A stretch of 64,000 bases of DNA, from positions 2,976,001 to 3,040,000 of the forward strand of contig JAPNXP010000012.1 of the NCBI GenBank assembly GCA_028753945.1, given 5' to 3'. This document shows positions 9,826 to 62,546 of the stretch, piece by piece. Every line of letters begins with the position of its first letter. The first letter of the stretch is position 1. Under the pieces are notes generated by a model. The model saw only the letters and a program-made list of their open reading frames with translations, made no database searches and was not told where the DNA came from. The translations under genes and the position numbers were made by a program. The stretch is from Hexactinellida sp. DTS-2022. Its lineage: Eukaryota > Porifera > Hexactinellida.

Positions 9826-9831
9826 AATAAT

Positions 9832-9958
9832 AAAAAATCCAAAATTGCAGCTGTGCCGACGCATGTTCCTTTGGTGGCACTATATTTTGGTGGTGTTTTA
9901 TTGATAGTGCCTCCAATGGAACATGCTGTCGGCACAGCTGCAATTTTGGATTTTTTTT
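9832..9958. repeat. Long hairpin LH1
   Basis: Arms of about 50 bp (aaaatccaaaattgcag ... ctgcaattttggattttt) enclose a short loop. Contains cgacgcatgttcctttgg and its complement. Confidence 0.85.
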
Positions 9959-11032
9959 TCGCCATGTCATCATCACTATGAAGGTGTTAAATTATTTCAA
10001 AAGGGTGTTACAGAAGGCATCGACCCTTAGAGTGGTGGAAGTTTCCATTTAGTTCACTTAATTTTAGAGATATTCAAGTTTGAGTAGAATATAATAGCTG
10101 ATGACTCAGCATTTTTTATGTGAGTGTTGGGTCATCACCCAACATCAACTAACCCATTTTAAATATCGAATTAACAAAATTGTAAAAACACATTCTTTTG
10201 ACGATGTCATCATCACCTCAAGGTGTCAAGACCCATTTGTAGAGGTGTTACGTGGCACAAGGATCAATTGATAAATTGGAAGTTTGTTTCTACCTTATTT
10301 GATTTCTGAGATTTATGATATTTAATTAATTAGTATAAATAATAATTAATATTATTTATAATTTAACACCAATTTCAATGTCAACTTACAATTATTAAGT
10401 TTAATTATTTTGTCATAAATAATTAATTAATTAATCTGGCTATCAAATTTCAATTCCACACACTCGATAACCCCTAATAAACAAATTGGGAGCATCTATA
10501 TAAGTCATATACTGACTTAATTAATTATTATTAATTACGTCAGTATATTAACAGTGTAAGAGTATTCTTGCAGAAGGAAATATAATCACATAATCTGTCG
10601 TTGTTATGGAATGTAGAATCTTAGTTTTCAATTGGAAAATAGAAGCCTACTCGATCTCACAAGTTGAATCAATATAATAATAACGAGTTGAAACAATAGA
10701 ATTAGATTTAACACTTTCAATTGTACTGAAGTGTTAGTAAACAAAGGAAACTTGCAACTCAATTGTGGCACAAACTAAGTACAATTTGAAAATTCGTGCA
10801 CTGTGAAAAGGTGTAGAATTTAATTCTCTATCGAATGCATATAAATTTAATTTTCGGGTACTATTTATTGTTCCTGTTTCAATATTAAACAGGTGCAAAA
10901 ATGTGTCCAAAAAAATGTAATAAAAAATCGTGACCCCAGGTGCACATCTGTAACCCATGAGACACATATCAAGAAAATTTGGGCTCTTAGTTAATTAAAC
11001 TCTGTTCTGTGGAGAGAATACGGACTAATAAT

Positions 11033-11158
11033 AAAAATCCAAAATTGCAGCCTGTGCCGACGCATGTTCCTTTGGTGGCACTATATCTTGATGGTGGTTT
11101 ATTGATAGTGTCTCCAAAGGAACATGCTATCGGCACAGGCTGCAATTTGGGATTTTTT
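11033..11158. repeat. Long hairpin LH2
   Basis: Same hairpin as LH1, with cagcctgtgccgac in both arms. Confidence 0.85.
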
Positions 11159-11875
11159 ATCTCCAAGTCATCAACGCCTCAAGGTGTCAAGAACCATTTG
11201 TTAATTGGTCTGAGCCACAAGGAACGGTAGATAAATTTGAAATTTGTTTCTATCATAAACCTTCTTGAGTTTAATGCCATTCATTTATTATGTATTGATA
11301 ATAAATTATATTATTAGTTATGTTTTTTAGCAATGTTATCCACGGTGAGTTGAGTAAAGTCAACACATGCCTTATATTAATTAATTTAATTTAATCCATT
11401 GTATAGTAATACTACAATTAAATAGAAGCCAGCTGGAATTTATAAGTTAAATCAATATATTTATCGAAAGTTGAAACAATAGTGAAAGATTTAACAAGTT
11501 AAATCAATATAATTCTTACAAGTTGAAACAATGGAATTTGATTTAACACTTTTAATAGAACTGAAGTGTTAATAAACAAAGGAAACTTGCAACTCAATTG
11601 TGTCCCAAACGAAACCCAATTTGAAAATTCATGCCCTGTGAAAAGGTGTAGAATTTAATTCTCTATCGATTGCAAATAAATTAAATATTTGGGCACCATT
11701 TATTGTTCCTTTTCTAACATTAAACAGGTTTAAAAATGTGTCTAAACAAATGTAATAAAAAATCGTGACCCCAGGTGCACATCTATAACCCATGTGACAC
11801 CTGTCCTGAAAATTCCAGTTCTTAATAAATATAACTCTTTCTGTGGAGAGGATACGGAAGGATAATAATAATAAT

Positions 11876-12000
11876 AAAATCCAAAATTGCAGCCTGTGCC
11901 AACGCATGTTCCTTTGGTGGCACTATATTTTGGTGTGGTTTATTGATAGTGCCTCCTATGGAACATGCTGTCGGCACAGGCTGCAATTTTGGATTTTTTT
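11876..12000. repeat. Long hairpin LH3
   Basis: Same hairpin family, preceded by AAT microsatellite. Confidence 0.85.
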
Positions 12001-13072
12001 TCCGCCATGTCATCATCACTACGAAGGTGTTAAATTATTTCAGAAAGGTGTTTCAAAAGGCAACGACCCTTAGTGAGTTGTAAATTTCTTTTATGCTCAC
12101 TTCATTTCAAAGATATTCAAGTTTCAGTAGAATATAATAGCTGATGACTCAGCATTTTTTATGTGAGCTCTGGGTCATCACCCAAAACGAACCGACCCAT
12201 TTGAATTATATAATTCACAAAATTGTGAAAACACATTTTTTTTACGATGTCATCATCACCTCAAGGTGTCAAGACCCACTTGTAGAGGTGTTACGTGGCA
12301 TAAGGATCAATTGATAAATTGGAAGTTTGTTTCTATCTTATTTGATTTCTGAGATTTATGATATTTAATTAATTAGTATAAATATTAATTAATATTATTT
12401 ATAATTTAACACCAATTTCAATGTCAACTTACAATTATTAAATTAAATTATTTTGTCATGAATAATAAATTAATTATTTTGTTATCAAATTTCAATTAAG
12501 CACTCTCGATAACCCCTAATAAACAAATTATAAGCATCTATATAAGTAATATACTGACTGAATTAATTATAATTAATTACGTCAGTATATTAACAGTCCA
12601 ATAATATTCTCGCAGAAGTAAATATAATCACATAATCTGTCGTTGTTGTGAAATATATAATCTTTTTTTTCAATTAGAAAATAGAAGCCTACTCGATCTC
12701 ACAAGTTGAATCAATATAATTATTACAAGTTGAAACAATAGAATTCGATTTAACACTTCAATTGAACTGAAGTGTTAGTAAACAAAGGAAACTTGCAACT
12801 CAATTGTGGCACAAACGAAACTCAATTTAAAAATTCGTGCACTGTGAAAAGGTGTAGAATTTAATTCTCTATCGAATGCATATAAATTTAATTTTCGGGT
12901 ACTATTTATTGTTCCTGTTTCAATATTAAACAGGTGCAAAAATGTGTCCAAAAAAATGTGACAAAAAATCGTGACCCCAGGTACACATCTGTAACCCATG
13001 AGACACTTATCCTGAAAATTTCAGTTCTTAGTAAATATAACTCTGTTCTGTGGAGTGGATACGGAAGGATAA

Positions 13073-13200
13073 AAAAATCCAAAATTGCAGCCTGTGCCGA
13101 CGCATGTTCCCTTGGTGGCACTATATTTTGGTGGTGGTTTATTGATAGTGCCTCCAAAGGAACATGCTGTCGGCACAGGCTGCAATTTTGGATTTTTTTT
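13073..13200. repeat. Long hairpin LH4
   Basis: Same hairpin family; loop ttttggtggtggtttattga. Confidence 0.85.
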
Positions 13201-14424
13201 CGCCATGTCATCATCACTCTGAAGGTGTTAAATTATTTCAGAAAGGTGTTTCAGAAGGCAACGACCCTTAGAGTGGTGGAAGTTTCCATTTAGCTCACCT
13301 AATTTAAGAGATATTCAAGTTTCAGTAGAATATAATAAGTGATGAGTCAGCATTTTTTATGTGAGTGTTGGGTCATCACCCAACATCAACTAACCCATGC
13401 GAATTATTTAATTCACAAAATTGTAAAAATACATTTTTTTGACGATGTCATTATCACCTTAATGTGTCAAGATCCACTTGTATAGGTGGTACGTGACATA
13501 AGGACCAATTGATAAATTTAAAGTTTGTTTCTATCTTATATCATTTCTGAGATTAATCAAATTTAGATAATTAGTATAAATATTTTATTAATCTATTTAT
13601 AATTTAACACCAATATTATGTACATCAAAATAAATTAAGTTCAATTATTTGCAATAATTATTAATCTAAATTGAATTTCACTATCATATTTGAATTCAAC
13701 GCACTCTATAACCCCAATAATCTATTTGGAACCATCTCTATACGTTAAACACAGAGCGAATTAATTAGAATTAAATATTTCATGTATCCATTGTTCAAGA
13801 ATATTCTAAGCAGAAATAAATATAATCAAATAATCTGTCTTTGTTATGGAATGTAGAATCCTAGTTTACAATTGGAAATAGAAGCCTACTCGATCTCACA
13901 AGTTGAATCAATATTATAATCACAAGTTGAAACAATATAATTAGATTTAACACTTTCAATTGATCTGAAGTGTTAGTAAACAAAGAAATTTCGACCCCCA
14001 TTTATGGCATGAATTACCAATTCTAAAAATTTGCATTTTTTCCCATCAGACGCAGAATTTTATCGTGAATCCAATGGTCAAAAAAATTGTGGCTTTAATA
14101 TAACATTTTTTGAGTTAAGAACCAGACAAATTTTGAAAGGTGTTAAAAATTTGTAAAAAATTTGTTAATAAAAAATCTTAACCCCAGGTGCACATCTGTA
14201 ACCCATGAGACACCCATCCTAAAAATTTGGGCTTCTAGTTAACTAAACTCTGTTGTGTGTAGAGGATACGGACTAATAATAATAATAAAAAACTTGACCC
14301 CAGGTGCACATCTGTAACTCATGAGACACATATCCTGAAATTTTCAGTTCTTAGTTACTAAAACCCTGTTCTGTGGAGGATCTACGGACCAATAATAATA
14401 ACCAAAGCACTAAGACCAATACTG

Positions 14425-14540
14425 GGCCACTATACTATAGTATAGTCGGCACAGAAATAACTAACCAAGGAACTGAGATTAGAACTGGGCCACTATACTA
14501 TAGTATAGTCGGCGGCAGTGACTCGGCACAGTAATAATTA
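14425..14540 (-). repeat. Short-hairpin tandem copies
   Basis: Two copies of the ~60 bp short-hairpin unit. The core is the palindrome actatactatagtatagt, followed by cggcacag. Confidence 0.8.
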
Positions 14541-15447
14541 ACATTGGTAACCCTGTATTTGATAATTCACAAATTGAATCCCTAAATATGTGTCTGGGTA
14601 TGCAATCTTTTCGTTCTAAAGAATGTCGAAACTGCCAAGATTTTTTACGATCTCCCAAAAATATTCAAGTTTAGTTCCTTGATAGAGGCTCACTTTAGTA
14701 TCCATCTGAAATTATCTACCAATTTCATCATAAAATGTGTGAAACTTTTTGAAAATTGACAACCATTCACATTTAGATGAACTATTTACGAGGGATCCTG
14801 CCGTCGGAATTTGGTTTAGTTGTCACTTATTTTTGTAGAGGAAAAGTATAGTGAAATACAGTCAGGTCTGCTTATTATGAACAAGATTTCGTCTGCTTAA
14901 TATTAACATTTTTACTGTGCCGACTATACTATAGTATAGTGGCCCAGTATTGAAATCACTGCCTTTATTATTATTATTATTATTATTTATATTTCTCCGT
15001 AGCAGGTGCCCTGGTCACACCTGTATACATTGAGGGCTAAAAGATTGGTATGTAGGTGCTGAGTTACCGTCTAATTTGCACCTGGGGTAGCGATTTTTGG
15101 TCCAATCATTTTAACACCTATTTAAACTAATTATTGCTCATAACATGAAATAATTAATATTGAGCTTGATAAATTTTACTTGTACGGATAGAGAATTAAA
15201 TTCTACACCTTTTCACAGTGCACGAATTTTTAAATTTGGTTTCGTTAGTGCCACAATAGAGTTGCAAGTTTCCTTTGTTTACTAACACTTCAGTTCCATT
15301 GAAAGTGTTAAATCTAATTCTATTGTTTCAACTTGTAATAAATTTATTGATTTAACTTGTTAAATCTTACTCTATTGATTCAACTTGCGATAATTATATT
15401 GATTTAACTAATAAATTCCAGCTGGCTTCTATTTAATTGTAGTATTA

Positions 15448-15947
15448 CAGTGGAACCTCTATAAGTGGGGAGCATGGGACGGCGAAAATTTCAATTGCCC
15501 CCCATTCCCCGGTTATAAAATTCAATTGGAAAAACATTATATATGCTATATTATACAAAGTATTCATATAACACACACATTAATGCACGTTATAGTTATT
15601 ATTTGTATATTATGACAATTTAGTTAACTGCTGATCTACACTAGGTGATTTCTTCTAAAAACATCAGAGTAGATCAATCGAAAATATTTTTTCTGTAGAA
15701 CTTTAGAGTCGATTTATTGGAAATATTGTATTATTTTATAAGAATCATGTTAGGATTTGTCCATTCCCCCCATTTATGGAGGTTGTTTTGTATGCAGATA
15801 AAAACTCCTTGAAATTTATGGTCCCCCATTCCCCACTTCCCCACTTATAGAGGTTCATTTGTATGGATATATACGAATATGGTAAAAAAATTCCCCACTT
15901 ATGGAGGTTCCCCATTTATAGAGACCCCACTTATAGAGGTTGCACTG
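15448..15947. mobile_element. pogo/Tigger-type MITE
   Basis: Ends cagtggaacctctataagtg and cacttatagaggttgcactg, TA on both sides (15446-15447, 15948-15949). It sits in the satellite tract gtagtatta/ctatacaatgg; 500 bp, no coding capacity. Confidence 0.85.
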
Positions 15948-16189
15948 TACTATACAATGGATTAAATAAAATAAAATAATATAAGGAGTTTGTTAACTCA
16001 ACTCAAATCACCGTGGATAACATTGCTAAATTTATTAAACATTATATTATAATTTATTATCAATACATATGGCATTAAACTCAAGATGGTTTATGATAGA
16101 AACAATCTTCAAATTTATCTACCGTTCCTTGTGACTCGGACCAATTAACAAATGGTTCTTGACGCCTTGAGGCGTTGATGACTTGGCGA

Positions 16190-16318
16190 AAAAAATCCAA
16201 AATTGCAGCCTGTGCCGACAGCATGTTCCTTTGGAGGAACTATCAATAAATAAACTACCAACAAAATATAGTGCCACCAAAGGAACATGCGTCGGCACAG
16301 GCTGCAATTTTGGATTTT
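16190..16318. repeat. Long hairpin LH5
   Basis: Same family as LH1; closes the satellite unit inside the pogo MITE. Confidence 0.85.
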
Positions 16319-16652
16319 ATTTATTATGAACAAATCCTACGGTCCCAATTTAACAACTTACATAGGGTTTGTAAGTGGAGTTCGCTTATTATGAAGTCTC
16401 TCTATTATGAACACAATTTTTGGTCCCTTAAATGTTCACAATAAAAGAACCTGACTGTACTATGGAGGCAATGGTGTGTTTGTATGGTTGCAAACTGTGA
16501 ATTCTTAAATTTTTTAAATACTACTGTAGCTAATTGTATTTTATCGAAGAAGGTTAGAAACTTCAATTCAATAGTTGTTGGTCGAGATAATAGCAAAATT
16601 TAAAAAATTCACTACATAAATCTCTTATAGATATCTTCCTGCATATAATGAT

Positions 16653-17253
16653 TAGTCGAGTGAGCATGCTCACTGGGTCGAGTGAGCATGCTCATAGGGT
16701 CCAGTGAGCATGCTCATAGGGTCCAGTGAGCATGCTCATTGGGTCGAGTGAGCATGCTCATAATACATAGGGTCGAGTGAGCATGCTCATTGGGTCCAGT
16801 GAGCATGCTCATCATAGGCGCAAAGTTTTACAATTATGAGGTTAAAGTTGGGGGGGCGCGGAGCGAGTGTGGTGAGGGACTTTTGATTGCAACAAATGAC
16901 ATTTTTTGAATGCATTATACGTATATTTACTATCCTAATTATATTGAACATTTTATTTTTTATCCAAAGGGCACGGTAACACCCGCACCATTAATCTTGC
17001 CCCCCTTCATCTTTTTGCGGGGGGGCGCATGCCCCCCCGCGCCCCCCCCCCCCCCCTGTTTGCGCCACTGATGCTCATAATACATAGGGTCGAGTGAGCA
17101 TGCTCATAATACATAGGGTCGAGTGGGCATGCTCATAGGGTCGAGTGGGCATGCTCATAGGGTCCAGTGAGCATGCTCATAGGGTCGAGTGAGCATGCTC
17201 ATGATACATAGGATCGAGTGAGCATGCTCATAGGGTCCAGTGAGCATGCTCAT
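16653..17253. repeat. Array of gtgagcatgctcat units, left arm
   Basis: More than a dozen copies of a ~21 bp unit. The core gagcatgctc is a perfect palindrome, spaced by agggtcg or agggtcc. Two copies carry ataatacat insertions. A hAT MITE interrupts it at 16813-17070. An inverted short counterpart lies at 22240-22329. Confidence 0.85.
16813..17070. mobile_element. hAT MITE inside the palindromic array
   Basis: Ends cataggcgcaaa and tttgcgccactg; perfect 8 bp duplication atgctcat (16805-16812, 17071-17078). Long G and C runs in the interior. Confidence 0.85.
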
Positions 17254-17666
17254 AATAAAATGTCGGGTGAGGCGGGAGATCAAGTGAAAGCGAGGTTAGG
17301 AGAGTCACGTGACCCCGAGTAGTCAACTTTTTTGAAATATGCATATCAGTTTTAGAATAAATAACTATTTCTTGTATTCTTGTATTTATTTTGTTGGAAA
17401 ATGCTTTTAATGCTTAGTCATCCAAACGAACGAATATTCGAATATTCGTTCGTTTAGAAAAAGGTTCGTTCGTTACATTTCCAATATTCGTTTCAGCCCT
17501 ACCGGCGGGCGTTTACCGTTCGTGCCATGTAAAATTGATGGAAACTAATGTTGCATGTTGTTAATACACAATGCAACAAACTACTGTATTTTTAACGCAA
17601 CAAACTAGTTTTAAATAGCAAAATGATTCTTCATCAGTTTTTCGATATTAAATTCGGCCATAATTA
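17254..17666. other. Unique stretch with 32 bp palindrome
   Basis: No coding signal. Contains a perfect 32 bp palindrome at 17424-17455 built on cgaacgaatattcg, followed by two further degenerate ttcgttcg copies. Confidence 0.6.
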
Positions 17667-17868: not shown

Positions 17869-20800
17869 ATGGCTACACCAATCGCAGTTGCTATACCTCC
17901 CCTAAGAGAAAGTCAGACGATACAATCATGGCAACCATTTTTCACCGCAGCAGTATCAACTTTAATCGGGTCGGAAGGGGGAGAAAAAGCAGCTATAAGA
18001 CTACTCTCCGCATACGTGAAGAGGGGAAAGCTCGAGGAGAAAGTTGTTTTGAAGGTACTCGAGTTAGACACTATAGCTACCGCATTCGAATATCTAAAGG
18101 AACGACTAGACCCTGAGAAGGATATATTCGGGGCCGCTGAGAGATTCCGGACTATGACTTGGCCACCCGGATAACTCGCTACAGACTTTTTAGTACGATA
18201 CCTCGAAGAAGCAATACAAGCCGAACTAACGCCAAAGCAAGCATGCGTATTTTTCGTAACACAGATGCCTCAGGAAATACAGGTCAACCTCAAGGAATGG
18301 ACCAGAACACAGGAAGCTGAAATGTCAGAGGATAACGCCATGAAAATGACAGGAGAAATAAAACGAGCCCTACTTCTCAAAGATATCCCGCTGGATAAGG
18401 GATTCAGAGGGGCTCCAGTTGGGAGAGTCGCCCGTGTAAACACATCAAGAAAGCACAGTGGAGGAGAATCTCAAGAATCTGGAGATGAAGAGGACCCAGA
18501 CAAGGTACGGCCCAAAGAGAGACAAGATTATAGCCGAAGTCGAGCAAGCTTTGAAGAGGAAAGAGATGTGAACTTCGTACAATCGAGGAGGACTAACCTC
18601 TCAGAGAGAAGAGTGACTACCTCGCGAGGACAAGAAGCAGTTTGCTATGGCTGCGGCAAACCAGGTCATATCATTAGAAATTGTCCGGAACGTAGACACA
18701 GTGATGGTCAACGGTTTACAAACCGAGGAAATCGTTACCCAAGTAGGGGGAACCAAGGCAGATATTACGGAAAAGATGGACACTGGAGGGGTAAAGAACG
18801 GGTTTATCGAGTATCAATGGGAGAAGGCGCAGTTACCGTACAAGTCAGAATTGGAGGAAAACGACTAGCAGCGATGCTGGACACCGGAGCGAGCCCCTGT
18901 GTAATGGATAGCGGTACTGCGAAAAGAACCAAACTTCTCGAAAAAATGGTTCCAGCCCCGACCGACGTATATGGACTGTGTAATAAACCCGTTCCTGTCC
19001 TTGGCTACGCTGATGCCGAAATATTTATGGAGAGAGGAGAGCCGACAGTTCAACGTATTCAGATCCTACAAACTGTGGAGCCTACCCTATTGTTAGGGCG
19101 ACTATTTATGCAAAAACTAGGGCGCGTCGAATTCGATTTTGAGAGAGGGCGCATCAAGTTAGGCAATTACTGGACAGACATAGAGTCTACTGTAGAGGGT
19201 GCCACCCCTCTAGCTAGGGCCCAGGTTATCAAACAAGACGAAGAACTCGATGAGAGTGCCAGGAAGGAAACGGACGAACTAATTAACCCAGAACTGGAGG
19301 CAAGGCAAAGAACAGGAGTAGGAGCTCTGATTGAACAATATCAGAACGTCTTTTCTCAGAATCGCAAACGACCTACTCGAACTAAACTAGACGTACAACA
19401 CGCTATCGTTACTACAGACAGCCCACCACAAAGCACTAGGCCACGCAGAGTACCACCTAGTTGGGAGAGGGAAATAAATCTACAGCTCGAGGAGATGATG
19501 GGCGCCAACCCACCAATATGTCAGGCAAGTAACTCACCCTGGAGTTTTGATGTAGTACTAGTAAAAAAGAAAGATGGTAGTCTTCGATTTGCCGTAGACT
19601 ACCGACGCTTAAACTCGATAACGAAACGCGATGAATATAGTTTGCCTAACCCACAAAGCATATTCGACAAGCTGGAAGGCAGCCGCTTCTTCACTAAGTT
19701 GGATATTGCTAGCGCATATTGGACAGTACCTATCCGTAAGCAGGATGTCGAGAAAACCGCATTTCATACACCGCGAGGTCTGTTCGAAATGTTGGTTACG
19801 CCCTTTGGCTTGTGTAATAGTCAATCCACATTTCAAAGACTGATGGATAGGGCATTGAGGAAAACTTCGAACGCCGAAAGTTTTGTAGATGACATATTAG
19901 TATTTTCCAACAGTTTCGAAGAACATCTAACTCATCTACAAGGAGTGCTCCAATGCTTAGAAACCGCCGGCCTGCAACTCCGAAGGGACAAGTGCAGAAT
20001 AGCCTATCGAGGAGTGGAGTTTTTAGGACACTGAATCTCGGAAGAAGGAAGAAGCCCTTTGGAGAGCTACGCAAAGAAGGTGCAAAACTTTCCCCTACCA
20101 GAGAATATGAAAGAACTCCAGAGGTATCTAGGCTTGGCAAATTACTATCGATCTTATATCAAGAATTTCTCAGTGGTGGCAGCACCCCTTTACGCCCTCA
20201 CCCGCATCGGCAGTAAATGGTACTGGGATGAGCAATGTGAACGAGCATTCGACGATCTAAGGCAGGGATTCTTAACCTTTTTAATTTCATTTCCCCTTTT
20301 GGCCTGTTCACTCTACCCGATTTCCCCCATCATTTGTATAAGGAAAAAAGTAGCCTCAAACATACAATTTATTAGCTTTCTGCTGGTTGAAAATTTAGCA
20401 AACAATAGTGCACAACATCAATATGATTGGTGATCAGTAATTTTGTTATGACCTATGTAGATAAAATATATGGTTTGTATTATTTTATTTAAGTTTTAAT
20501 ATTATTATTAATTTTGTCAAAATTGATTTCCCCCTTATATTCCCGAAATTTCCCCCCAGGGGGAAATTTCCCCCCGGTTAAGAACCACTGATCTAAGGCA
20601 TCGGTTATTAAGAGAACCCATTACACTCACTTACCCTTGTTGGGACCGAGAGTTTCATATTGAGGCAGACGCCTGCGGATCTGGAATTGGAGCGATTCTG
20701 GGGCAAATGGATGAAAGGACCGGGAAAGTAAGACCGATCGAATACTTTTCCTCTTCCCTCAGTCCAAGTCAGCGAAACTACTCCGCCGGTCAGCTGGAAG

Positions 20801-22009
20801 CATGGGCCGCGATTGCTGCGATACGTAAATGGGCGGTTTACCTAAAAGGAGCAATAGGCGGTTGGAATCGACGTGGGTACACTACCCTGGGCAGAAGGTG
20901 GCTATCGTTACTTCCTCCTGATGGTGGATCTCTTCACCAGGTACGTAGATTTATACCCACTGGCAGATCAGGAGGCGAGTAGCTTAGTAAAAGCTTTCGA
21001 ACAGGGGTGGATATATAGAGGACACGGTGTACCTTTAAAGATTCTAAGTGATCAAGGAAGCAGTATCGACGGAGTGCAATTTAGAGAGTATTGTCGTTCG
21101 TTGGGTGTAGAAAAGAAGAGAACCACGCCGTACCACCCAGAAGCAGATGGTATGGCCGAACGTAACATAGGCATGGTAAAGCAAGTTATTCGTTGTTTAC
21201 AGTTAGATCGGAGACTATCAAAAGAGTCATGGCCTTCTCTGTTAACAGAGGTATCTTTCCACTGCAACGGAATGAAGAATGCCACCAGCAGTACCTCTCC
21301 ACACATGTTAACCCGCGGGCAGCAACCAAAATGCCCCATGGACACATGGTGCGATATACTTCACGAAGGCGAGGCGAATTCATACGAAGAATACTTGAGT
21401 AACCTCAAAGCGAAACAGGAAACCCTACAAAAAATAGCACAGGAGAACATCAATCGCAATCTCGAAAGGGTACGCATCAGCAGAAATAAAGGAAGAACTT
21501 TTTCGAGCATCGAAGTCGGTGACCGCGTAATGCTTAAGAGGAACAAGTTACAAGACTCTTTAGCCCCGCGCTTCGACGGTCCGTACTCAGTAATCGGACG
21601 GAATGGACCCAGCTTCAAACTACGTTTAACGAGTCGGGACAAATGGGTCCACTTGAATCATTGCAAGATTTATGCTGGTAGCGAGCCAGCCGTAATTCAA
21701 ATAGGACGAACATGCGAACCTGACAACGATGACCGTTCCAGTGAGAAGGAGCACACAGTGAATGTAGATAACCCACCCAACTTGTGTGAACATTACAGCA
21801 CCACTGAAGAAGAGACAAACGAAATGGGAGACGGAAACATCGATGAAAATACAGATCAGACTGAACATGAGTTGGGTCAGGAAGACGAGCTAATAACAGG
21901 AGTTACCCACTCACAATATAGACGATATCCCTCCAGAGAGAGGAGGAAACCAGCGCATTTCTCCAACTATGCAAATTGGGACGACGTGCCACGGGATGTA
22001 ACCAATTAG
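17869..22009 (+). pseudogene. gag-pol: gag-pol of the gypsy element
   Basis: One frame runs from ATG 17869 through gag, protease and RT, broken by TAA at 18172 and TGA at 20032, both single in-frame stops. The part 18265-20034 shows a CCHC knuckle (Cys127, Cys130, His135, Cys140 of that segment), protease DTGA (Asp206), and RT with KLDIASAYW and FVDD (540-543). RNase H begins after 20035 (HIEADACGSGIGAIL near 20660). A MITE interrupts it at 20263-20590. Near 20850 RNase H jumps directly to the integrase core: the end of RNase H and the HHCC finger are missing. The integrase core from 20873 keeps Asp19, Asp60 and Glu96 (D35E spacing) and a GPY motif. A fused gag-pol frame is typical of Tf1-like elements. 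The copy cannot make a full polyprotein. Confidence 0.9.
20263..20590. mobile_element. hAT MITE in pol
   Basis: Ends cagggattcttaacc and ggttaagaaccactg are inverted; perfect 8 bp duplication atctaagg (20255-20262, 20591-20598). Removing it restores RNase H reading across DDLRHRLLRE. Confidence 0.9.
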
Positions 22010-22239: not shown

Positions 22240-22329
22240 TCCAGTGAGCATGCTCACTGGACCCTATGAGCATGCTTACTGGACCCTATGAGCATGCTAA
22301 CTCGACCCTATGAGCATGCTCACTCGACT
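22240..22329. repeat. Array of gtgagcatgctcat units, right arm
   Basis: Four copies in the opposite spacer orientation (ggaccctatgagcatgct) to 16653-17253. Together they could be tandem-type inverted repeats of an element that hosts the gypsy insertion. Confidence 0.75.
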
Positions 22330-26676: not shown

Positions 26677-26691
26677 ACTGTGCCGACCATA

Positions 26692-46812: not shown

Positions 46813-47002
46813 GTAATAAAATACATACATTTTATTTACTTGGGAATCGAAATTTGTGCGTCTTATCCGAGCACGTCTTATACGTATTAACCGAATCATT
46901 TATAATGAATCAGATAGGAGGAAAAATTGGTTATTAGCGAACAGTACGTAATAGCCAAGAGTCCATCTTAAGCCGAGCACTTACTAAGCGAGTTCCACTG
47001 TA

Positions 47003-47345
47003 CACTAATTGTCAAATTGGGCCTTGTTTGTGCAATAATTGAGTCGTTAATTTCCTTTATTTACTAACACTTCAGTTCAATTGAAGTGTTAAATCTAATT
47101 TTATTGTTTCAACTTGTGATAATTATATTAATTCAACTTGAATGATCGAGTAGGCTTCTATTTCCACTTGAAAACTAAGAATATTATATGTTCCATAACA
47201 AAGACTTATTATGTGAGTATATTCCTTCTGCAAGAATACTCTTGCACTAGCATTCTTGACTTATTCAATTCAAATTAATTCAGTCTGTATTTAACATATC
47301 TTCCAAATTTTACTGTGCCGACTATACTATATACTAGTATAGTGG
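47003..47345 (+). repeat. Satellite unit, right part of the split copy
   Basis: Resumes the body interrupted at 38821 (caaattgggccttgtttg, acttcagttcaattgaagtg) and ends with a short hairpin at 47305-47345. Confidence 0.75.
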
Positions 47346-47358
47346 CCCAGTATTGAAA

Positions 47359-47890
47359 TCACTCAACTTCAATAATCTTTGAGATAATGAGATTATTAGT
47401 ACTTTATTCTTTATATGCTAATACACTCATTACCTCAAAGATTATTGAAGTTAGGCCTAGAAAATGTATTATCAATGAAGAGGAAGTTGCCAATTGCGGA
47501 TAGATCAGTACTAGCATAGTTTACATAAAATGGATAGTTTTTGAGTTATGGCTCATTTTAAGAAATATGCATTTCCCTGGCAACCGAGGAATATGTCAAC
47601 AATCCATTTATAATTTCGATATATTTCATTCAACTAGTAATGGAACGCCTCATGTTCCAATATTGAACATTTATAACGCGTTTAACTATGTTAAAAGCAG
47701 GCTATAAAAACACGATAATTCCCACGAAAAATAGCGATTACGTAATCAAATGGTGATATATCACAATTCTAAAGGGTGTTATGTGCCTTAATATCATGTT
47801 CCTAGTTTCCTATATAATTATAATACATTTCTCAGGTCTGTCATTACTAGCTATTGAGATAAAGGTATGTCAGCTAATAATCAATCGCCT
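47359..47890 (+). mobile_element. Half of a fold-back element
   Basis: Matches the centre and one arm of the palindrome at 52600-53680 (aacttcaataatctttgaga, ggcaaccgaggaat, ttataacgcgttta), with many differences. The other arm is missing beyond the satellite hairpin. Confidence 0.7.
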
Positions 47891-50870: not shown

Positions 50871-52010
50871 CTGTCCAGTCTGTTCTCTTTAATAGTCCAC
50901 TTCTCTAATAATCCACATCCCTAATATTCTAACATAATTTTGTTGTTTAATTAATTAAACTTCCGGATTACTTGGGATCAAAGGTATAAATAGGAAAAAC
51001 CCATTTTCACTTTCAATTGAAATTCAATTAACTTTCATTTTCAATTTCACATTTCCAGGTTAATTAACTAGTATATTCATAAAATCTAAAGTTGCATATA
51101 CACTAGTCTACCCGGCCAAAAGTATTTGAACAACACAAATAGGATTCAAACGTTTAAGCTTCTATCAGCATAATACATTTAGAGATGCTTCAACATGGAT
51201 GTTAAATACATAAATCAATATGTTAACTATATTAATGTGGCAAATTTTTTGAATTTACATTATTATGTCGGTGTTAAACTCATTAACTATACAATTAACT
51301 AATTAAATATTAATTTATGATCATTATGAGGCAATTATAATATATAAATTCTGATTTCAGATTTCAATACCACATGGTCGTATTACTCTAGGTATTTATT
51401 TCTAATCGTTACGATTATTTACCATTTGATATCCAGAAAGTGTCTTTTATCTCAGATAAACGGACATATTTGAACCTGAATTTTTACACACTTAAATGGA
51501 TTAAAAAAAGCTCGATTCCCTATAAGGAAATTCTCCAAAAGACATAATCTGTCGAAAGCAGCCACATTCTCATTTGTGCCACATGTGGCACGTGGCAGAG
51601 ACATTTTTTGCTAAACTGGCATGAAATCAGAATATTTTTTAATTTATAACTAGTTAGATATTTACAGTGATTTCACCGTAGTTTAAACAGCCGTAATAAT
51701 AATAAGTCACCTGACGAATATTGTGTCTGCATTAATATTCGTGTTGTTCAAATACGTTTAGCTTGTTAGTGATAACTTATTGCATGGTTTTGTTTCTAAT
51801 ATTGATCTCTTATAGTATAATAGTCCATTCCCTAATAGTCCACTTCTGTAATTTTCTACTTCTGTTACTTTTCTTATTGTTATTTCAGTTAACGTCCACA
51901 TTGGGGCCCTCTATCTACAAGTGGACTATTAGATAGGCCAGCTCCCCTTACTACTTACGCAGTTCATACTCACTAAGCCCACTGGTGGACTATTAGAGAA
52001 AACAGGGTGT
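50871..52010. mobile_element. pogo-like MITE with nested MITE
   Basis: Ends share ctgttctctttaatagtcca and the inverse tggactattagagaaaacag, and TA lies outside both. The exact first base is uncertain. It holds the element at 51101-51771 and a tract related to 26692-26815. Confidence 0.65.
51101..51771. mobile_element. Tc1/mariner-like MITE
   Basis: Ends share cacta...ggccaaaagtatttgaa and the inverse ttcaaatacgtttagc. A second copy at 55749 is split by satellite cluster 4. Contains gtgccacatgtggcacgtgg. Confidence 0.65.
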
Positions 52011-52599: not shown

Positions 52600-53680
52600 C
52601 ATGGCCTACTTAATATACGGCTATATATGTCGCCGAAAAGGCCATAAAACAAAGAGGCCAGTTTCTAATTTTCAAAATGGAGAATTGATCTTTATTCGAA
52701 TAATTAGCAATGATAGAGCTGAAAAGTGTATTATAACTATATAGGAATATGGTATCCAGGTATACATAGCACCCTCCAGAATTGTGACATGTCATCATCT
52801 GATGACGTTATGGTTATTTTGGTTGCGAATTATCTTGTTTTTCTAGCATACTTTTAACATAGTTAAACACGTTATAAATGTTCAAAATTGGAACATGGTT
52901 ATACACAGAAGTAGTAGAATAAAATATATCGAAATTATAAATGGAAGGTTGACACATTCCTCGGTTGCCATGGAAAATGTATATTTCCTAAAATGTGCCA
53001 TAACTCAAAAACTATGAATGTTATGTAAACTAGACTGGTACTGATCTGTCCGGAATATGTAACTTCCTATTCATCGATGATACATTTTATATGCCTAACT
53101 TCAATAATTTTTGAGATAATGAGATAATTAACACTTAATTCATTATTAGGTAATACACTCATTATCTCAAAGATTATTGAAGTTAGGCATATAAAATGTA
53201 TTATCGATGAATAGGAAGTTACCTATTCCGGATAGATCAGTACCAGCCTAGTTTACACAACATTCATAGTTTTTGAGTTATGACACATTTTAGGAAATAT
53301 ACATTTTCCACGGCAACCGAGGAATGTGTCAACATTCATTTATAATTTCGATATATTTTATTCTACTACTTCTGGGTATAACCATGTTGCAATTTTGAAC
53401 ATTTATAACGCGTTTACCTATGTTAAAAGTATGCTAGCAAAACCAGATAATTCGCAACCAAAATAACCATAACGTCATCAGATGATGACATATCACTATT
53501 CTGGATGGTGCTATGTATACCTGGATACCATATTCCTATATAGTTATAATGCACTTTTCAGCTCTATCATTGCTAATTATTCGAATAAAGATCAATTCTC
53601 CATTTTGAAAATTAGAAACTGGCCTCTTTGTTTTATGGCCTTCTCGGCGACATATATAGCCGTATATTAAGTAGGCCATG
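52600..53680. mobile_element. 1.08 kb palindromic fold-back element
   Basis: Two ~520 bp arms are near-perfect inverted copies around a short centre (~53120-53165). Both ends read catggcctac / gtaggccatg and the flanks carry a perfect 7 bp duplication gcgcatc (52593-52599, 53681-53687). The mirrored 62-residue frames at 52610-52798 and 53482-53670 are a consequence of symmetry. No transposase is present. Confidence 0.85.
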
Positions 53681-54792: not shown

Positions 54793-55015
54793 GGAGCGCT
54801 CTCAACTGTTCGACTCTTTATGTTGTCATTTGTTAGAATTTCATATGTTGTCAATTGTCCGACTCTTATTTAGCTATGTTGCCAATTGTCCGACTCTTAT
54901 ATAGCTATGTTGTCAATTGTTCGACTCTTATTTAGCTAAGTTGCCGATTGTCCGACTCTTATATAGCTATGTTGTCAATTGTCCGACTCTTATTTAGCTC
55001 TTATTTAGCTGTATT
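54793..55015 (-). repeat. Left TIR array of MULE 3
   Basis: Five to six units of ~31 bp with gttgtcaattgtccgactct. Alternate units differ in gtc/gcc, so the array is shorter and less even than the right one. Confidence 0.85.
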
Positions 55016-55019: not shown

Positions 55020-55597
55020 GAAAAACGTGATGATTCACAGCAATAAATATTGTCCACAGCTGGTAGAACTGAATTGGCACTGTATAAAATGCCCCATCGA
55101 AACAGATTTCTGAGATATCTGCCAATATAGCAATGATTTCTTCAGAAAAAAATATGAATGCGCGATCATTACCAACAATTATTGTACCCTTTGTTTATTC
55201 CTTAAGGAGTTCCTGGCAATGCCTCCTCTAGTTCGAGTAGAGTTTGTGGAATCTTTGGCTGAAGTTCCCTTCTTGAGCGATACATACTTGATTCGCAATT
55301 CGTGAAGGAAATATTACGTCCTGCGGGGGCTATTCTGGTTACATCGTTGAAAACCTCTCTTAAATTAGCTCTAGATACCTTTGCAGCCTCTTTACATTTT
55401 GCTTTAATCGAATAAATATCAGCATCATAAGAATCAATTTCGTGGTTATAGGAGGCGAGTTGGTCTATAAGGAGTGAGTTTTGATTGAGTTTAGCTGTAG
55501 CCTTACATCCTTCACGGAAGAGGACACATTTTAAATATATGGTATTATCTGATTTTCTCTTTGAAACAAGATATTTGTGATTATCAGATGTAGTATA
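55020..55597 (-). pseudogene. FLYWCH-MULE transposase, N-terminal remnant
   Basis: Minus strand: YTTSDNHKYLVSKRK and LKCVLFREGCKATAKL form the FLYWCH finger, followed by ISFTNCESSMYRSRRELQPK. MULE 2 has an almost parallel text (ISFNECESAKFRSRRLLQPR), so the two belong to one lineage. Beyond a frameshift near 55200 the block with FDGAFYT and QLWTIF is recognisable, then the gene ends at the TIR. The remaining catalytic residues and any RING are deleted. At its start, the pogo MITE at 55598 has cut off the first codons. Confidence 0.8.
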
Positions 55598-56040
55598 CAG
55601 TAAAACCTCCAATTAGGGAACACTTTGGGGACTGCTGAAAAGTGTTCCTAATATGGAGGTGTTCCTTGATAAGAGGTCTGCCTTTTAGGATCATATCATA
55701 AACTTTGTAAGGTGTATGGATGTTTGTTATAAACATGCTCAAGATGTACACTAACAGGCCAAAATTATTTGAAGAGCAATAATTTGTATTCATAAATTAA
55801 TGTATATAGTACATATTAACATTATTAGATGTTTCAACATGGCTATTTTGATAAATTTATATGTCAATTAAAATATAATAGCGAAATTTTTGAAACTCAT
55901 TAACTATATAATTAGCTAATTAAATAAAAAATACTGATCATTAATTAAGATGCAGTTAGAATATACAAGTTCTGATTGCGGATTTGAATTCCACATGGTC
56001 GAATTACTCTAAGTGCATAATTTCAAACCAATACGATTAT

Positions 56041-56360
56041 TACTGTGCCGACTATACTATAGTATAGTGGCCCAGTATTGGAATCACTGCCTTTATTTTT
56101 ATTTTTACTGTGCCGACTATACTATAGTATAGTGGCCCAGTTCTAATCTTACTGCCTTTAATAATATTATTACTGTGCCGACTATACTATAGTATAGTGG
56201 CCCAGTTCTAATCTTAGTGCTTTGGTTAGTTATTACTGTGCCGACTATACTATAGTATAGTGGCCCAGTTCTAATCTCAGTGCCTTGGTTAGTTATTATT
56301 ATTACTGTGCCGACTATACTATAGTATAGTGGCCCAGTATTAGAATCACTGCCTTTATTT
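56041..56360 (+). repeat. Short-hairpin tandem array
   Basis: Five copies of ~60 bp, alternating agtattggaatcactgcc and agttctaatcttactgcc or ctcagtgccttggtta versions. Confidence 0.85.
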
Positions 56361-57665
56361 ATATTATTATTATTTCTCCGTAGCAGGTGCCCTGGCCACA
56401 CCTGTATACATAGAGGGCTGAAACTTGGCATGTAGATTCGGAGTCGACGTCTAATTTGCACCTGGGGTTACGATTTTGTATTAACAAATTTTTGACACAT
56501 CTTTAACACCTTTCAAAATTTGTCTGGTCCATAACTCAAAAAATGTTTTACTAAACCCCAAAATTTTATTTCACATTTGGATTCGCCATAAAATTCTGCG
56601 TCTGATGGGAGAAGAAAACTTTCAATAAAGAGTTCTATTTCTGCCATAAATGGGGGTTGAAATTTCTTTGTTTACTCACACTTCAGTTTCAGTATAACTG
56701 TTAAATCAAATTCCATTGTTTCAACTTGTAATAATTCTATTGATTTAACTTGTTAAATCTTACTCTATTGATTCAACTTGCGATAATTAAATTGATTTAA
56801 CTTATAAATTCCAGCTGGCTTCTATTTAATTTAGTATTACTATACAATTGATTAAATTAAATAATATAATATAAGGAATTTGTTGACTCAACTCAACCAA
56901 CCATGGATAACATTGCTAAAATAAATAACTAATAATATAATTTATTATCAATACATAATGAATGAATGGCATTAAACTAAAGATGGTTTATGATAGAACC
57001 GTTAAGATTTTACATTCCACAACAACGACAGATTAAGTGATTATATTTATTTCGGCGAGAATATTCTTGCACAATTAATGTACTGACATATTTAATTCTA
57101 ATTAATTCGCTCTGTGTTTACCGTATAGAGATGGTTCAAAATAGATTATTGGGGTTATCGAGTGCGTGGAATTTAAATATTATAGTGAAATTCAATTTAA
57201 ATTAATAATAATTGCAAATAATTGAACTTAATTTATTTTGCTGTATATAATAATGGTGTTAAATAATTAATAAATTAATTAAATATTTATACTAATTAGC
57301 TAAATTTCATTAATCTCAGAGATGATACAAGATAGAAACAAACTTTCAATTTATCAATTGGTCCTTATGCCAGGTACCACCTATACAAGTGGGTCTTGAC
57401 ACCTTGAGGTGATTATGACATCGTCAAAAAAATGTACTTTTACAATTTTTTTAATTCGATATTTAAAATGGGTTAGTTGATGTTGGGTGATGACCCAACA
57501 CACACATAAAAAATGCTGAGTCATCAGCTATTATATTCTACTCAAACTTGAATATCTCTAAAATTATATGAACTAAATGGAAACTTCCACCACTCTAAGG
57601 GTCGATGCCTTCTGTAACACCTTTTTGAAATAATTTAACACCTTCATAGTGATGATGACATGGCG

Positions 57666-57794
57666 AAAAAAAATCCAAAATTGCAGCCTGCGCCGACAGA
57701 ATGTTCTTTTGGAGGCACTATAAATAAACAACCAACAAAATGTAGTGCCACCAAAGGAACATGCGTCGGCACAGGCTGCAATTTTGGATTTTTT
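57666..57794. repeat. Long hairpin LH12
   Basis: Same hairpin family, a few arm mismatches. Confidence 0.8.
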
Positions 57795-59095
57795 ATTTAT
57801 CCGTAGCCACTCCACAGAACAGAGTTTTATCAACTAAGAGCCCAAATTTTAGGATGGGTGTCTCATGGGTTACAGATGTGCACCTGGGGTTACGATTTTT
57901 AATTAAGAAATTTTGGACACATGTTTAACACCTTTCAAAATTTGTCTGGTCCATAGCTCAAAAATTGTTTTACTAAACCCCCAAATTTTATTTCACATTT
58001 GGATTCGCCATAAAATTCTGCGTCTGATGGGAGAAGTAATTTTTCAATAAAGGGGTCAATTTCTGCCATAAATGGGGGTTGAAATTTCTTTGTTTACTCA
58101 CACTTCAATTTCAGTAAAACTGTGAAATCTAATTCCATTGTTTCAACTTGTAATAATTATATTGATTTAACTTGTTAAATCCTACTCTAGTGATTCAACT
58201 TGCGATAATTATATTGATTTAACTTATAAATTTCAGCTGGCTTCTATTTAATTCTAGTATTACTATACAATGGATTAAATAAAATATTATAATATAAGGA
58301 ATTTGTTGACTTAATTCAACTTAACCGTGGATAACATTGCTAAAATACATAACTAATACTATAATTTATTAACAATACATAATGAATGAATGGCTTTAGA
58401 GTTTAAACTCAAGATGGTTTATGATAGAACCGTAAGATTTTACATTCCACAACAACGACAGATTAAGTGAATATATTTATTTCGGCGAGAATATTCTTGC
58501 ACAATTAATGTACTGACGTAATTAATTCTAATTAATTCGCTCTGTGTTTAACGTATAGAGACGGTTCTAAATAGATTATTGGGGTTATCGAGTTCGCTGA
58601 ATTCAAATATGATAATGAAATTCAATTTAAATTAATAATTATTGCAAATAATTGAACTTAATTTATTTTGATGTACATAATTTTGGTGTTAAATTATTAA
58701 TAGATTAATTAAATTTTTATACTAATTAGCTAAATTTCATTAATCTCAGAGATGATACAAGATAGAAACAAACTTTCAATTTATCAATTGGTCCTTATGC
58801 CAGGTACCACCTATACAAGTGGGTCTTGACACCTTGAGGTGATGATGACATCGTTAAAAAAATCTATTTTTACAATTTTTTTAATTCGACATTTAAAATG
58901 GGTTAGTTGGTGTTGGGTGATGACCCAACACTCACATAAAAAATCCTGACTCATCACTTAATATATTCAACTGAAACTTGAATATCTTTGAAATGAAGTG
59001 AGCTAAAACATAACTTTCAACTCACTAAGCGTTGTTGCCTTTGGAAACACCTTTTCGAAATAATTTAACACCTTCATAGTGATGATGACATGGCG

Positions 59096-59225
59096 AAAAA
59101 AAAAATCCAAAATTGCAGCCTATGCCGAGAGCATGTTCCCATGGAGGCACTATCAATAAACCACCACCAAAATATAGTTCCACCAAAGGAACATGCGTCG
59201 GCACAGGCTGCAATTTTGGATTTTT
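59096..59225. repeat. Long hairpin LH13
   Basis: Same hairpin family, followed by ATT run. Confidence 0.8.
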
Positions 59226-60370
59226 ATTATTATTATTCTTCCGTAGCTCATCCACAGAACAGAGTTTGATTAACTAACAACCCAAATTTGCAGGACAGGT
59301 GTCTCATGGGTTACAGATGTGCACCTGGGGTTACGATTTTTGATTAACAAATTTTGGACACATGTTTAACACCTTTCAAAATTTGTCTGGTCCATAACTC
59401 AAAGAATGTTATACTAAACCCCCAATTTTTATTTCATCTTTGGATTCATCTTCAAATTCTGCGTCTGATGGGTAAAGAAATTTTACTAATGGGTTTAATT
59501 TCTGCCATAAATGGGGGTTGAAATTTATTTGTTTACTCACACTTCAATTTCAGTAAACTGTTAAATCTAATTCCATTGTTTCAACTTGTAATAATTATAT
59601 TGATTAAACTTGTTAAATCTTACACTATTGTTTAAACTTGCGATAATTATATTGATTCCACTTGTGAAATCGAGTAGGCTTCTATTTTCTATTTGAAAAC
59701 TAAGATTTTACATTCCACAACAAAGACAGATTATGTATTATATTTACTTCTGCATAGAATATTCTTGCACAATGGATACATGACATATTTAATTCTAATT
59801 AATTAGCTCTGTGTTTAATGTATAGAAATGGTTCCAACTTCCAAATAGATTATTGGGATTATCGAGTGCGCTGAATTCAAATATGATAGTGAAATTCAAT
59901 TTAAGTGAATAATTATTGCAAAAGATTGAACTTAATATATTTTGATGTACATAATATTGGTGTTAAATTATTAATAGATTAATTAAATATTTATACAAAT
60001 TATCTAAATTTCATTAATCTCAGAAATGATATAAGATAGAAACAAACTTTAAATTTATCAATTGGTCCTTATGGCACGTACCACCTATACAAGTGGATCT
60101 TGACACCTTAAGGTGATGATGACATCGTCAAAAAAATGTATTTTTACAATTTTGTGAATTAAATAATTCGCATGGATTGGTTGGAGTTGGGTGAACACCC
60201 AACACGCACTTTAAGAAATGCTGACTCAGCACATATTATATTCTACTGAAACTTGAATATCTCTCAAATGAAGTGAGCTAAAACGAAACTTCCAACTCAC
60301 TAAGGGTCGTTGCCTTTTGAATCACTTTTCTGACATAGTTTAACACCTTCATAGTGATGATGACATGGCG

Positions 60371-60489
60371 AAAAAAAATCCAAAATTGCAGCCTGTGCCG
60401 ACAGCATGTTCCATTGGAGGCACTATCAATAAACCACCACCAAAATATAGTGCCACCAAAGGAACATGCGTCGGCACAGCTGCAATTTT

Positions 60490-60520
<31 letters not shown>
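60371..60520. repeat. Long hairpin LH14 with T run
   Basis: Same hairpin family; right arm followed by over 20 T residues, then ctccgtagaaggtgccctgg. Confidence 0.85.
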
Positions 60521-61596
60521 CTCCGTAGAAGGTGCCCTGGCCTGATCTTTATAGTTGATGGGCTGAAACTTGGCATGTAGGTGCGATGGGACCGTCTAAT
60601 TTGCACCTGGGGTTACGATTTTTGATTAACAAATTTTTGACACATCTTTAACACCTTTCAAAATTTGTCTGGTCCATAACTAAAAAAATATTTTACTAAA
60701 CCCCCAAATTTTATTCCACATTTGGATTCACCGTAAAATTCTGCGTCTGATGGGAGAAGAAAACTTTTAATAAAGAGTTTTATTTCTGCCATTAATGGGG
60801 GTTGAAATTTCTTTGTTTACTCACACTTCAATTTCAGTAAAACTGTGAAATCTAATTCCATTGTTTCAACTTGTAATAATTATATTGATTCAACTTGTGA
60901 GATCGAGTAGGCTTCTATTTTCTAATTGAAACCTAAGATTTTACATTCCACAACAACGACAGATTAAGTGATTATATTTATTTCTGCGAGAATATTCTTG
61001 CACTGTTAATAGACTGACGTAATTTATTATAATTAATTCAGTCAGTATATGACTTATATAGATACTTCCATTTTGTGTATTAGGGGTTATCGAGTGTGCG
61101 GAATTGAAATTTGATTACCAAATTAATTAATTATTTATTTATGACAAAATAATTTAACTTAATAATTGTAAGTTGACATTGAAATTGGTGTTATATTATA
61201 AATAATATTAATATTTATTTATACTAATTAATTAAATATCATAAATCTCAGAATTCAAAAAAGATAAAAACAAACTTCCAATTTATCAATTGATCCCAAT
61301 GTCACGTAACACCTCTACAAATGGGTATTGACACCTTGAGGTGATGATGACATCGTAAAAAAAATGTGTTTTTACAATTTTGTTAATTCGATATTTAAAA
61401 TGGGTTATTTGAAGTTGGGTGATGACCCAACACTCACATAAAAAATGCTGAGTCATCAGCTATTATATTCTACTCAAACTTGAATATCTCTAAAATGAAG
61501 TGAACTAAATGGAAACTTCCACCACTCTAAGGGTCGATGCCTTCTGTAACACCTTTTGATATATTTTAACACCTTCATAGTGATGATGACATGGCG

Positions 61597-61709
61597 AAAA
61601 AAAAATCCAAAATTGCAGCTGTGCTGACAGCATGTCCCATTGGAGGCACTATCAATAAACCACCACCAAAGGAACATGCGTCGGCACAGCTGCAATTTTG
61701 GATTTTTTT
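61597..61709. repeat. Long hairpin LH15, short loop
   Basis: Same hairpin family; the segment with atatagtgcc is deleted. Confidence 0.8.
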
Positions 61710-62411
61710 ATTATTTCTCCGTAGCAGGTGCCCTGGCCACACCTGTATACATTGAGGGCTGAAACTTGGCATGTAGTTGCGGAGGGACCGTCTAATTTGC
61801 ACCTGGGGTTACGATTTTTTATCAAATGATTTCAACACCTATTTAAACTAATTATAACTCATAACATGAAATAATTAATATTGAGCTTGAAAAAATTTAC
61901 ATGTACGGATAGAGAATTAAATTCTACACCTTTTCACAGTGCACGAATTTTTAAATTGGGTTTCGTTAGTGCCACAATAGAGTTGCAAGTTTCCTTTGTT
62001 TACTAACACTTCAGTTCCATTGAAAGTGTTAAATCTAATTCTATTGTTTCAACTTGTAATAATTATATTGATTTGACTTGTTAAATCATATTCTATTGTT
62101 TCAACTTGCGATAAATATATTGATTTAACTTATAAATTCCAGCTGGCTTCTATTTAATTGTAGTATTACTATACAATGGATAAAATAAAATAAAATAAAA
62201 TATGGAATTTGTTGATTTTACTCATTCACCGTGGATAACATTGCTAAAATCAATAACTAATAATATAATTAATTATCAATACATAATGAATGAATGGCAT
62301 TAAACTCAAGATGGTTTATGATGGAAACGAACTTCAAATTTATCTAACGTCCGTGTGACTCGGACCAATTAACAAATGGTTCTTCACACCTTGGGCGTTC
62401 ATGACTTGGCG

Positions 62412-62546
62412 AAAAAAAAAATCCAAAATTGCATCCTGCGCCGACAGCATGTTCCTTTGGAGGCACTATCAATAAACCACCAACAAAATATAGTGCCACC
62501 AAAGGAACATGCGTCGGCACAGGCTGCAATTTTGGATTTTTTTTTT
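62412..62546. repeat. Long hairpin LH16
   Basis: Same hairpin family; closes cluster 4. Confidence 0.85.

Follow-up and report, generated by a model that had tools for sequence, protein, structure and literature searches.

What kind of element builds head-to-tail arrays of non-coding units, each closed by a long hairpin, and how do such arrays come about? The question is raised by a 64,000-base stretch of Hexactinellida sp. DTS-2022 (assembly GCA_028753945.1, contig JAPNXP010000012.1, positions 2,976,001 to 3,040,000 of the forward strand), here called the window. A hairpin-closed repeat family takes up about 19,955 of its 64,000 bases (19,982 under a different masking), counting one decayed copy and the nested insertions. 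We put at about 0.6 the probability that the family consists of non-autonomous Helentron-type (HINE-like) elements, mobilised by an HUH Rep/helicase protein of the rolling-circle kind that is encoded elsewhere in the genome. We are equally confident that it works like a HINE, and it probably is one. The kind of element would then be known already, with the long hairpin and the array layout as a variant not met in the portions of the published accounts that we drew on, and set apart from the elements described there.

Heads, units and hairpins

An earlier note on this DNA had described sixteen hairpins that end units lying head to tail in both orientations, with some 19 kb of family in all. Hairpin search and alignment bear this out, and the total is nearer 20 kb. 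The sixteen long hairpins each close one non-coding unit, and the units are arranged head to tail in four clusters, with one further copy standing alone: A (minus strand, 9832-14532), the solo copy E (plus, 14914-16321), B (plus, 25572-30340), C (minus, 44978-46814) and D (plus, 56042-62546). The decayed copy F (plus) lies in two pieces (Table 1). The order from 5' to 3' is one to five short hairpin heads, an ATT-rich tract, and then the units, each with its long hairpin. A head is made up of ACTGTGCCGACTATACTATAGTATAGTGGCCCAGT with a tail that ends either in CTTTATT or in TTGGTTAG, and its first bases are ACTGTGCCGAC or a sequence differing from it by one base. Units open around TCCGTA and close with the hairpin AATCCAAAATTGCAGCCTGTGCCGAC...GTCGGCACAGGCTGCAATTTTGGATTTT, ending in GGATTTT.

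The second, shorter hairpin previously seen to open the clusters is present at cluster starts, but it is really a tandem monomer of about 62-77 bp with one to five copies per group. Twenty-two of these heads were typed over seven groups (A, two; E, one; B1, four; the B2 group, four; C, three; D, five; F, three). Two intact heads were folded and gave z-scores of -3.8 and -4.1. Of the outermost heads, those of D and E are complete, and that of C is nearly complete. The repeat unit itself also stood up, though not the length of 0.85-1.2 kb first given for it: units measure 780-1424 bp and come in three forms, seven short (780-836 bp), seven long (1180-1254 bp) and two fused (1414 and 1424 bp), with unit E taken without its 504-bp nested insertion. 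There are two types of head tail and two unit starts, which we call G and T. Because the three forms and the G and T features of start and tail are mixed between units, the bodies are mosaics.

ATT/AAT microsatellite had been thought to join the units. This holds for five of the eleven unit-to-unit junctions, which carry an ATT repeat of at least two units, and fails at six, three with a single ATT and three with none. Ten of the eleven are headless, running from hairpin through a T/ATT joint to the next body; every cluster nevertheless opens with heads. At the remaining junction, between B1 and B2, a hairpin is joined directly to a new head (GGATTTTT followed at once by ACTGTGCCGAC). This precise 3'-to-5' joint is what would be expected from a circle or from a neighbouring insertion. 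A nanovirus-like nick motif in the joints was dropped as a candidate because ATT repeats followed by AC produce it trivially.

Folded as DNA, the long hairpin of unit A1 forms 53 pairs at -61 kcal/mol; two hundred dinucleotide shuffles averaged -14.4 (standard deviation, sd, 2.8; z = -16.5), and none was as low. With RNA parameters all sixteen hairpins fold with 44-53 pairs. Mean pairwise identity is 94.6 per cent across the hairpins and 77-80 per cent across whole units. With D4 left out for its deletion, departures from the consensus number 12 in 735 positions on the 3' arm and 35 in 750 on the 5' arm (19/784 and 39/800 with D4 included); gaps were scored as differences and the copies are related, so that the Fisher value of 0.0009 should be taken as no more than indicative. 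The terminal ~50 nt look conserved as sequence, because the 3' arm varies less and the pairing of the arms is not maintained through compensating changes, and a 3' end read by a protein would fit this pattern better than selection on the fold alone. Within these ~50 nt, inside the hairpin stem, the head's 10-bp motif CTGTGCCGAC recurs inverted (GTCGGCACAG), a match that 13 of 20,000 head shuffles reached.

The units were also said to be non-coding, and our scan agrees. All twenty-six stop-to-stop open reading frames (ORFs) of at least 110 aa in the window were compared with Pfam; none of the four overlapping the family has a match, and the units encode nothing recognisable.

Ends, target sites and likeness to Helentrons

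At the 5' boundary a head was found in six of six cases (A, E, B, C, D and F), after upstream DNA that differs from locus to locus and ends in TTTTT, ATTATT or TTTTATT. The first eleven bases of the head are exactly ACTGTGCCGAC in B, D and E; in A, C and F they differ from it by a single base. The 3' boundary falls inside a T/ATT run past the hairpin at all five loci that have one (F has no 3' end), again with differing flanks. Ts in T-rich surroundings are therefore found at both boundaries (6/6 5' ends and 5/5 3' ends). None of five loci shows a target duplication abutting the element beyond matches within A/T runs, where a few duplicated Ts are possible. Canonical Helitron ends (5'-TC and CTRR-3', with entry between an A and a T) were not found at the cluster boundaries; the ends read ACTG, preceded by a T, and GGATTTT.

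The earlier note had proposed looking for solo copies with empty sites, and the window holds one good case and one weaker one. For E, a second copy of the repeat that hosts it (6677-6875) is present without the element, and the flanks, 60 bp on the left at 93 per cent and 146 bp on the right at 92 per cent, meet in ATTTTTTATT, a run of six Ts. For cluster D, a paralog of the left side (51276-51419; 149 bp at 79 per cent) reaches the head, and the right side is represented by only 36 bp at 83 per cent, about 150 bp off. On this evidence the family is mobile. The host repeat of E is itself small, with inverted ends (ACAGTCAGGT...ACCTGACTGTA), and its occupied copy spans 14858-16460.

These ends are close to those of HINEs. 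The sections of the HINE paper drawn on here describe non-coding elements with sub-terminal inverted repeats, a 5' palindrome or inverted repeat and a 3' palindrome (PMC4067079). The same sections report Ts at both boundaries, a T-rich target that is left unchanged, and microsatellites or tandem repeats; the sub-terminal repeats are 11-15 bp long, with 11 bp used to define Helentron families, and in mite HINEs the 3' repeat lies 38-60 nt from the end, before a palindrome of 5-10 bp (PMC4067079). By that description our family resembles HINE and DINE-1 elements in being non-coding, in having a palindrome or inverted repeat at its 5' end, and in entering a T-rich target without changing it; the likeness is less clear-cut for the inverted repeats just inside its ends and for the 3' palindrome. 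The 5' inverted repeat is represented by the folded heads, and microsatellites and tandem repeats by the ATT tracts and tandem heads. The hairpin reaches the 3' end in 16/16 units but takes in the 3' repeat. In contrast to HINEs as those sections describe them, the heads stand in tandem, and the 3' hairpin has arms of ~50 nt in place of a 5-10 bp palindrome, making it some five to ten times longer. The earlier view that the layout fits no standard class was thus too strong: the ends, the T-rich target, the lack of duplication, and the microsatellite and tandem repeats all match HINEs and Helentrons. The rolling-circle mechanism that accompanied that view as speculation is the one best supported here.

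Other rolling-circle elements share parts of the layout. In Cg_HINE of the Pacific oyster the left flank carries a repeat, an inverted repeat and a microsatellite; tandem repeats (monomer consensus 138-181 bp) come next, and a 3' repeat and palindrome follow, with one right end per element. Cg_HINE targets TT without duplication (PMC7492417). Our family shows a similar order of left flank, tandem repeats and 3' repeat with palindrome, and has the TT target and the lack of duplication in common with it, but here every 0.8-1.4 kb unit has a 3' hairpin of its own. In the parts of the report consulted on Helraiser, the reconstructed bat Helitron, the 3' hairpin is a terminator that is bypassed in ~11.7 per cent of events, and circles with head-to-tail joints form (PMC4778049). 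The hairpin near the 3' end and the head-to-tail joints recall these canonical Helitrons, whose 5'-TC...CTAG-3' ends are absent from the cluster boundaries. Plant centromeric Helitrons (Xiong et al. 2016) also form tandem arrays, many with several 5' ends but only one 3' end according to the section on them in PMC12628747; compared with that description our arrays are reversed, in that the heads gather on the 5' side and each unit carries a 3' end.

Under the Helentron reading, strand transfer would start at the head, which would serve as the origin end, and the long hairpin, which holds the inverted head motif, would act as the terminator end. The copy, either single-stranded or circular, would enter T-rich DNA between Ts and leave the target unduplicated. 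Bypass of the terminator could carry a multi-unit array as one.

Array formation and competing readings

The layout of the clusters would follow if a new copy entered the ATT tract lying between the head and the body of the element itself, which would offer it a T-rich landing site. One such event would give head-head-body-hairpin-body-hairpin; with repetition heads would pile up at the 5' side and bodies would follow, each with its own terminator, and slippage in the ATT tract would later alter the numbers of both. Serial self-insertion into the ATT tract is the best account of the layout, a favoured rather than a demonstrated one. If arrays grow by self-insertion, heads should mirror bodies, and the number of heads should equal the number of bodies. 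In cluster D, with five of each, heads and units typed by subfamily stand in mirror order at 5/5 positions; the direct order gives 3/5, and one of the ten possible orders gives 5/5. Scored by script, the first body and the innermost head agree in six of seven groups, F being the exception with an ambiguous tail. Since head and body numbers agree only in D (5:5) and E (1:1), ATT slippage must also act. Age order within arrays was dropped as support for self-insertion, as the differences per hairpin copy, both arms counted, are inconsistent between clusters (A 1, 3, 3, 3; B2-B4 2, 4, 11; C 2, 0; D 4, 5, 2, 11, 2).

A number of results weigh against Helentron-type elements that insert into themselves. 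Mirror order holds in only one of three positions in B2-B4 (by reading), A and C are of one type each and uninformative on this point, and the subfamily labels of the units were given by eye. Heads and bodies are unequal in number in A (two heads to four units and a fragment), B (8:4) and C (3:2), and the outermost head is damaged in three of six cases (A, B and F). The conservation of the hairpin is matched by some body stretches found only in the longer units, for example 98.8 per cent over 36 pairs. Compensatory change was rejected as proof of a selected stem: a double change is kept in one of 46 pairs, and the covariation term comes out slightly on the unfavourable side. The hairpin stem takes in the 3' repeat, which lies ~19 nt from the end of the 3' T run, unlike that of mite HINEs in the sections cited, and at 10 bp the shared repeat is one base under the 11-bp rule stated there. 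A hidden duplication of up to ~5 Ts is possible for E. Finally, none of the twenty-six ORFs in the window matches a Rep, helicase or Helentron endonuclease family, shorter and broken frames being outside the scan; the earlier note had suggested looking for long copies that carry a Rep/helicase, recombinase or other gene.

The strongest competitor, which we regard as unlikely but worth keeping in view, is a new hairpin-ended class moved by an enzyme other than the Helentron protein, for example another HUH nuclease or a hairpin-reading recombinase. It draws on a 3' hairpin far longer than those of mite HINEs and on arrays that are the reverse of those in plants, both as described in the portions of the literature used above, and on the lack of a helper protein among the window ORFs. 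The target, the flanks, the absence of duplication and the paired sub-terminal repeats nevertheless agree with HINEs, and a longer hairpin would be a simple change. We are about as doubtful of a distinct class of hairpin-ended, possibly single-stranded element that builds cassette-like arrays, with heads collected on the 5' side and bodies, closed one and all by a conserved long hairpin, added singly into its own ATT tract. In bacterial integron arrays, too, the cassettes follow one another head to tail and end in a hairpin site, and the array opens with a site of another kind. They differ from our family, whose units are non-coding and whose surroundings are eukaryote-like, and no integrase was seen.

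Less probable again is a true satellite, with unequal crossing-over or ATT slippage multiplying the units where they lie and no present transposition. The head-to-tail order, the T/ATT joints, the tandem heads and a tandem 116-bp piece in cluster A would all suit such a history. Growth in place was rejected because neighbouring units resemble each other no more than units with shuffled labels do: with B1 and B2 treated as adjacent, neighbouring bodies are 75.6 per cent identical against 75.0 per cent (sd 2.4) after shuffling, and 0.40 of 5000 shuffles were as high. Over the first 450 alignment columns neighbours are, in favour of a satellite, slightly more alike (76.6 against 74.0 per cent, sd 2.8), a value reached in 0.18 of 5000 shuffles. 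Judged over whole bodies, 11/16 units have their nearest relative in another cluster, and 2/16 have it in an immediate neighbour. Both orientations occur, the ends are precise in differing flanks, and the host repeat of E also exists empty, all of which speak against a satellite.

We consider it very improbable that the family is a retroposon, either a short interspersed element driven by a long interspersed element or one of Penelope type, with an ATT tail and template jumping. The T/ATT tracts past the units, the hairpin near the tail, and the headless state of ten of eleven internal units and of the 116-bp piece, which resemble 5'-truncated copies, can be cited for it. Against it, cluster 5' ends are uniform (6/6), and no target duplication was found at five of five loci apart from the A/T-run matches. 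ARAGORN with bacterial settings found no tRNA in the window, and Rfam gave no match there at the gathering score. A scan of unit B1 alone for pol III boxes found no B-box within one mismatch and one A-box-like match, on the minus strand. The least credible reading, a cut-and-paste miniature element (a miniature inverted-repeat transposable element or a foldback), could account for the large hairpin and the 10-bp motif inverted near both ends but not for the lack of duplication beyond A/T runs, the position of the inverted motif off the very 3' end, or the T-run flanks.

The wider setting and what the arrays may mean

Positions of all parts of the family are collected in Table 1. By our reading of the letters, the first head of the B2-B4 group appears to be split by a small inserted element at ~26695-26815.

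Table 1. Heads, units and decayed pieces of the hairpin-closed family, in window positions.
Feature	Position	Strand	Terminal hairpin	Remarks
Cluster A, 5' heads	14421-14532	-		two short hairpins, outer one disturbed; both tail type T
Cluster A, truncated unit start	14282-14401	-		~116 bp, in tandem with next unit; from Tandem Repeats Finder row 14166-14401 and sequence
Unit A1	13076-14274	-	13076-13194	
Unit A2	11878-13065	-	11878-11995	
Unit A3	11036-11858	-	11036-11154	
Unit A4	9836-11026	-	9836-9952	3' end of cluster A, then T/ATT run to ~9817
Element E, 5' head	14914-14948	+		solo; identical head at 56042-56076 was folded
Element E, unit	14988-16316	+	16194-16316	nested insertion ~15450-15953; paralogous empty site near 6731-6735
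B1, 5' heads	25572-25817	+		four monomers, first shortened; tail type G
Unit B1	25838-26673	+	26546-26673	
B2-B4, heads	26676-27074	+		four monomers, first abutting B1 hairpin (GGATTTTT then ACTGTGCCGAC)
Unit B2	27080-28259	+	28142-28259	
Unit B3	28269-29097	+	28983-29097	
Unit B4	29115-30334	+	30212-30334	hairpin decayed
Copy F, first piece	38451-38821	+		decayed; three heads and unit start
Copy F, second piece	46999-47362	+		apparent continuation past ~8.2 kb inserted element; link read from two break points
Cluster C, 5' heads	46647-46814	-		three; tail type G
Unit C1	45769-46600	-	45769-45887	
Unit C2	44981-45760	-	44981-45099	
Cluster D, 5' heads	56042-56374	+		five monomers; tail types G, G, T, T, G
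Unit D1	56377-57790	+	57672-57790	fused form
Unit D2	57799-59222	+	59104-59222	fused form
Unit D3	59241-60494	+	60377-60494	
Unit D4	60521-61704	+	61604-61704	hairpin shortened
Unit D5	61716-62538	+	62420-62538	3' end of cluster D

The search for relatives beyond the window covered three kinds of material. Three family sequence strings had no match in the literature text searched, a string search and not one of Repbase or Dfam. In viral and prokaryotic collections the exact head pattern (genome and viral contigs) and the right-arm pattern (genome contigs) gave no matches. The left-arm pattern had two viral-contig matches (L001 and L002), which we rejected as chance: both lie in G+C-rich, coding-like DNA and only 19-23 bp are similar. 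Absence from these collections means little, because a eukaryotic family is not expected in them.

The surroundings of the family, with a FLYWCH/MULE transposase, a gypsy-like retroelement and a THAP/TNP-like ORF, are eukaryotic in character. An element of ~8.2 kb (38822-47002) has the THAP/TNP-like ORF (40138-40659) and seems, by our reading, to split copy F; the break shows TA, and the ends are CAGTAGAACTC-like. Cluster C would then lie inside this element, which would supply a relative age order. Beside copy F, at 47363-47600, is a related copy of a palindrome found at 52944-53337 (196-bp arms, 92 per cent complementary, 2-nt spacer). A gypsy-like retroelement at ~18175-22009 (protease, reverse transcriptase, RNase H and integrase) sits between arrays of a 22-bp repeat with TGAGCATGCTCA (16655-17254 and 22245-22328).

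Three sets of minisatellites, with units of 15, 32 and 31 bp and inverted copies, bracket or adjoin transposase-like ORFs (255-549 and 2494-2547; 35155-35716 and 37788-38404; 54844-54999 and 63327-63693). The ORF by the first set (819-2093, plus strand) has MULE and FLYWCH matches. By the second set, one ORF (35843-36790, minus) matches RING, with MULE just under the cut-off, and another (36791-37567, minus) has no Pfam match; the ORF by the third set (55202-55612, minus), also without one, is similar to the latter by eye. The minisatellite arrays look as if they were tandem terminal repeats of an element.

The birth of satellites from Helentrons has been ascribed to internal expansion, failed termination or repeated insertion, in the passage on the subject in PMC12628747. 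If our reading is true, the known range of Helentron 3' ends would widen to hairpin arms near 50 nt. A rolling-circle element would become a satellite-like array in a few insertions by carrying its preferred target between its origin and its body, and this would give a rule for the birth of satellites from Helentrons, with heads and bodies in mirror order and the oldest outside.

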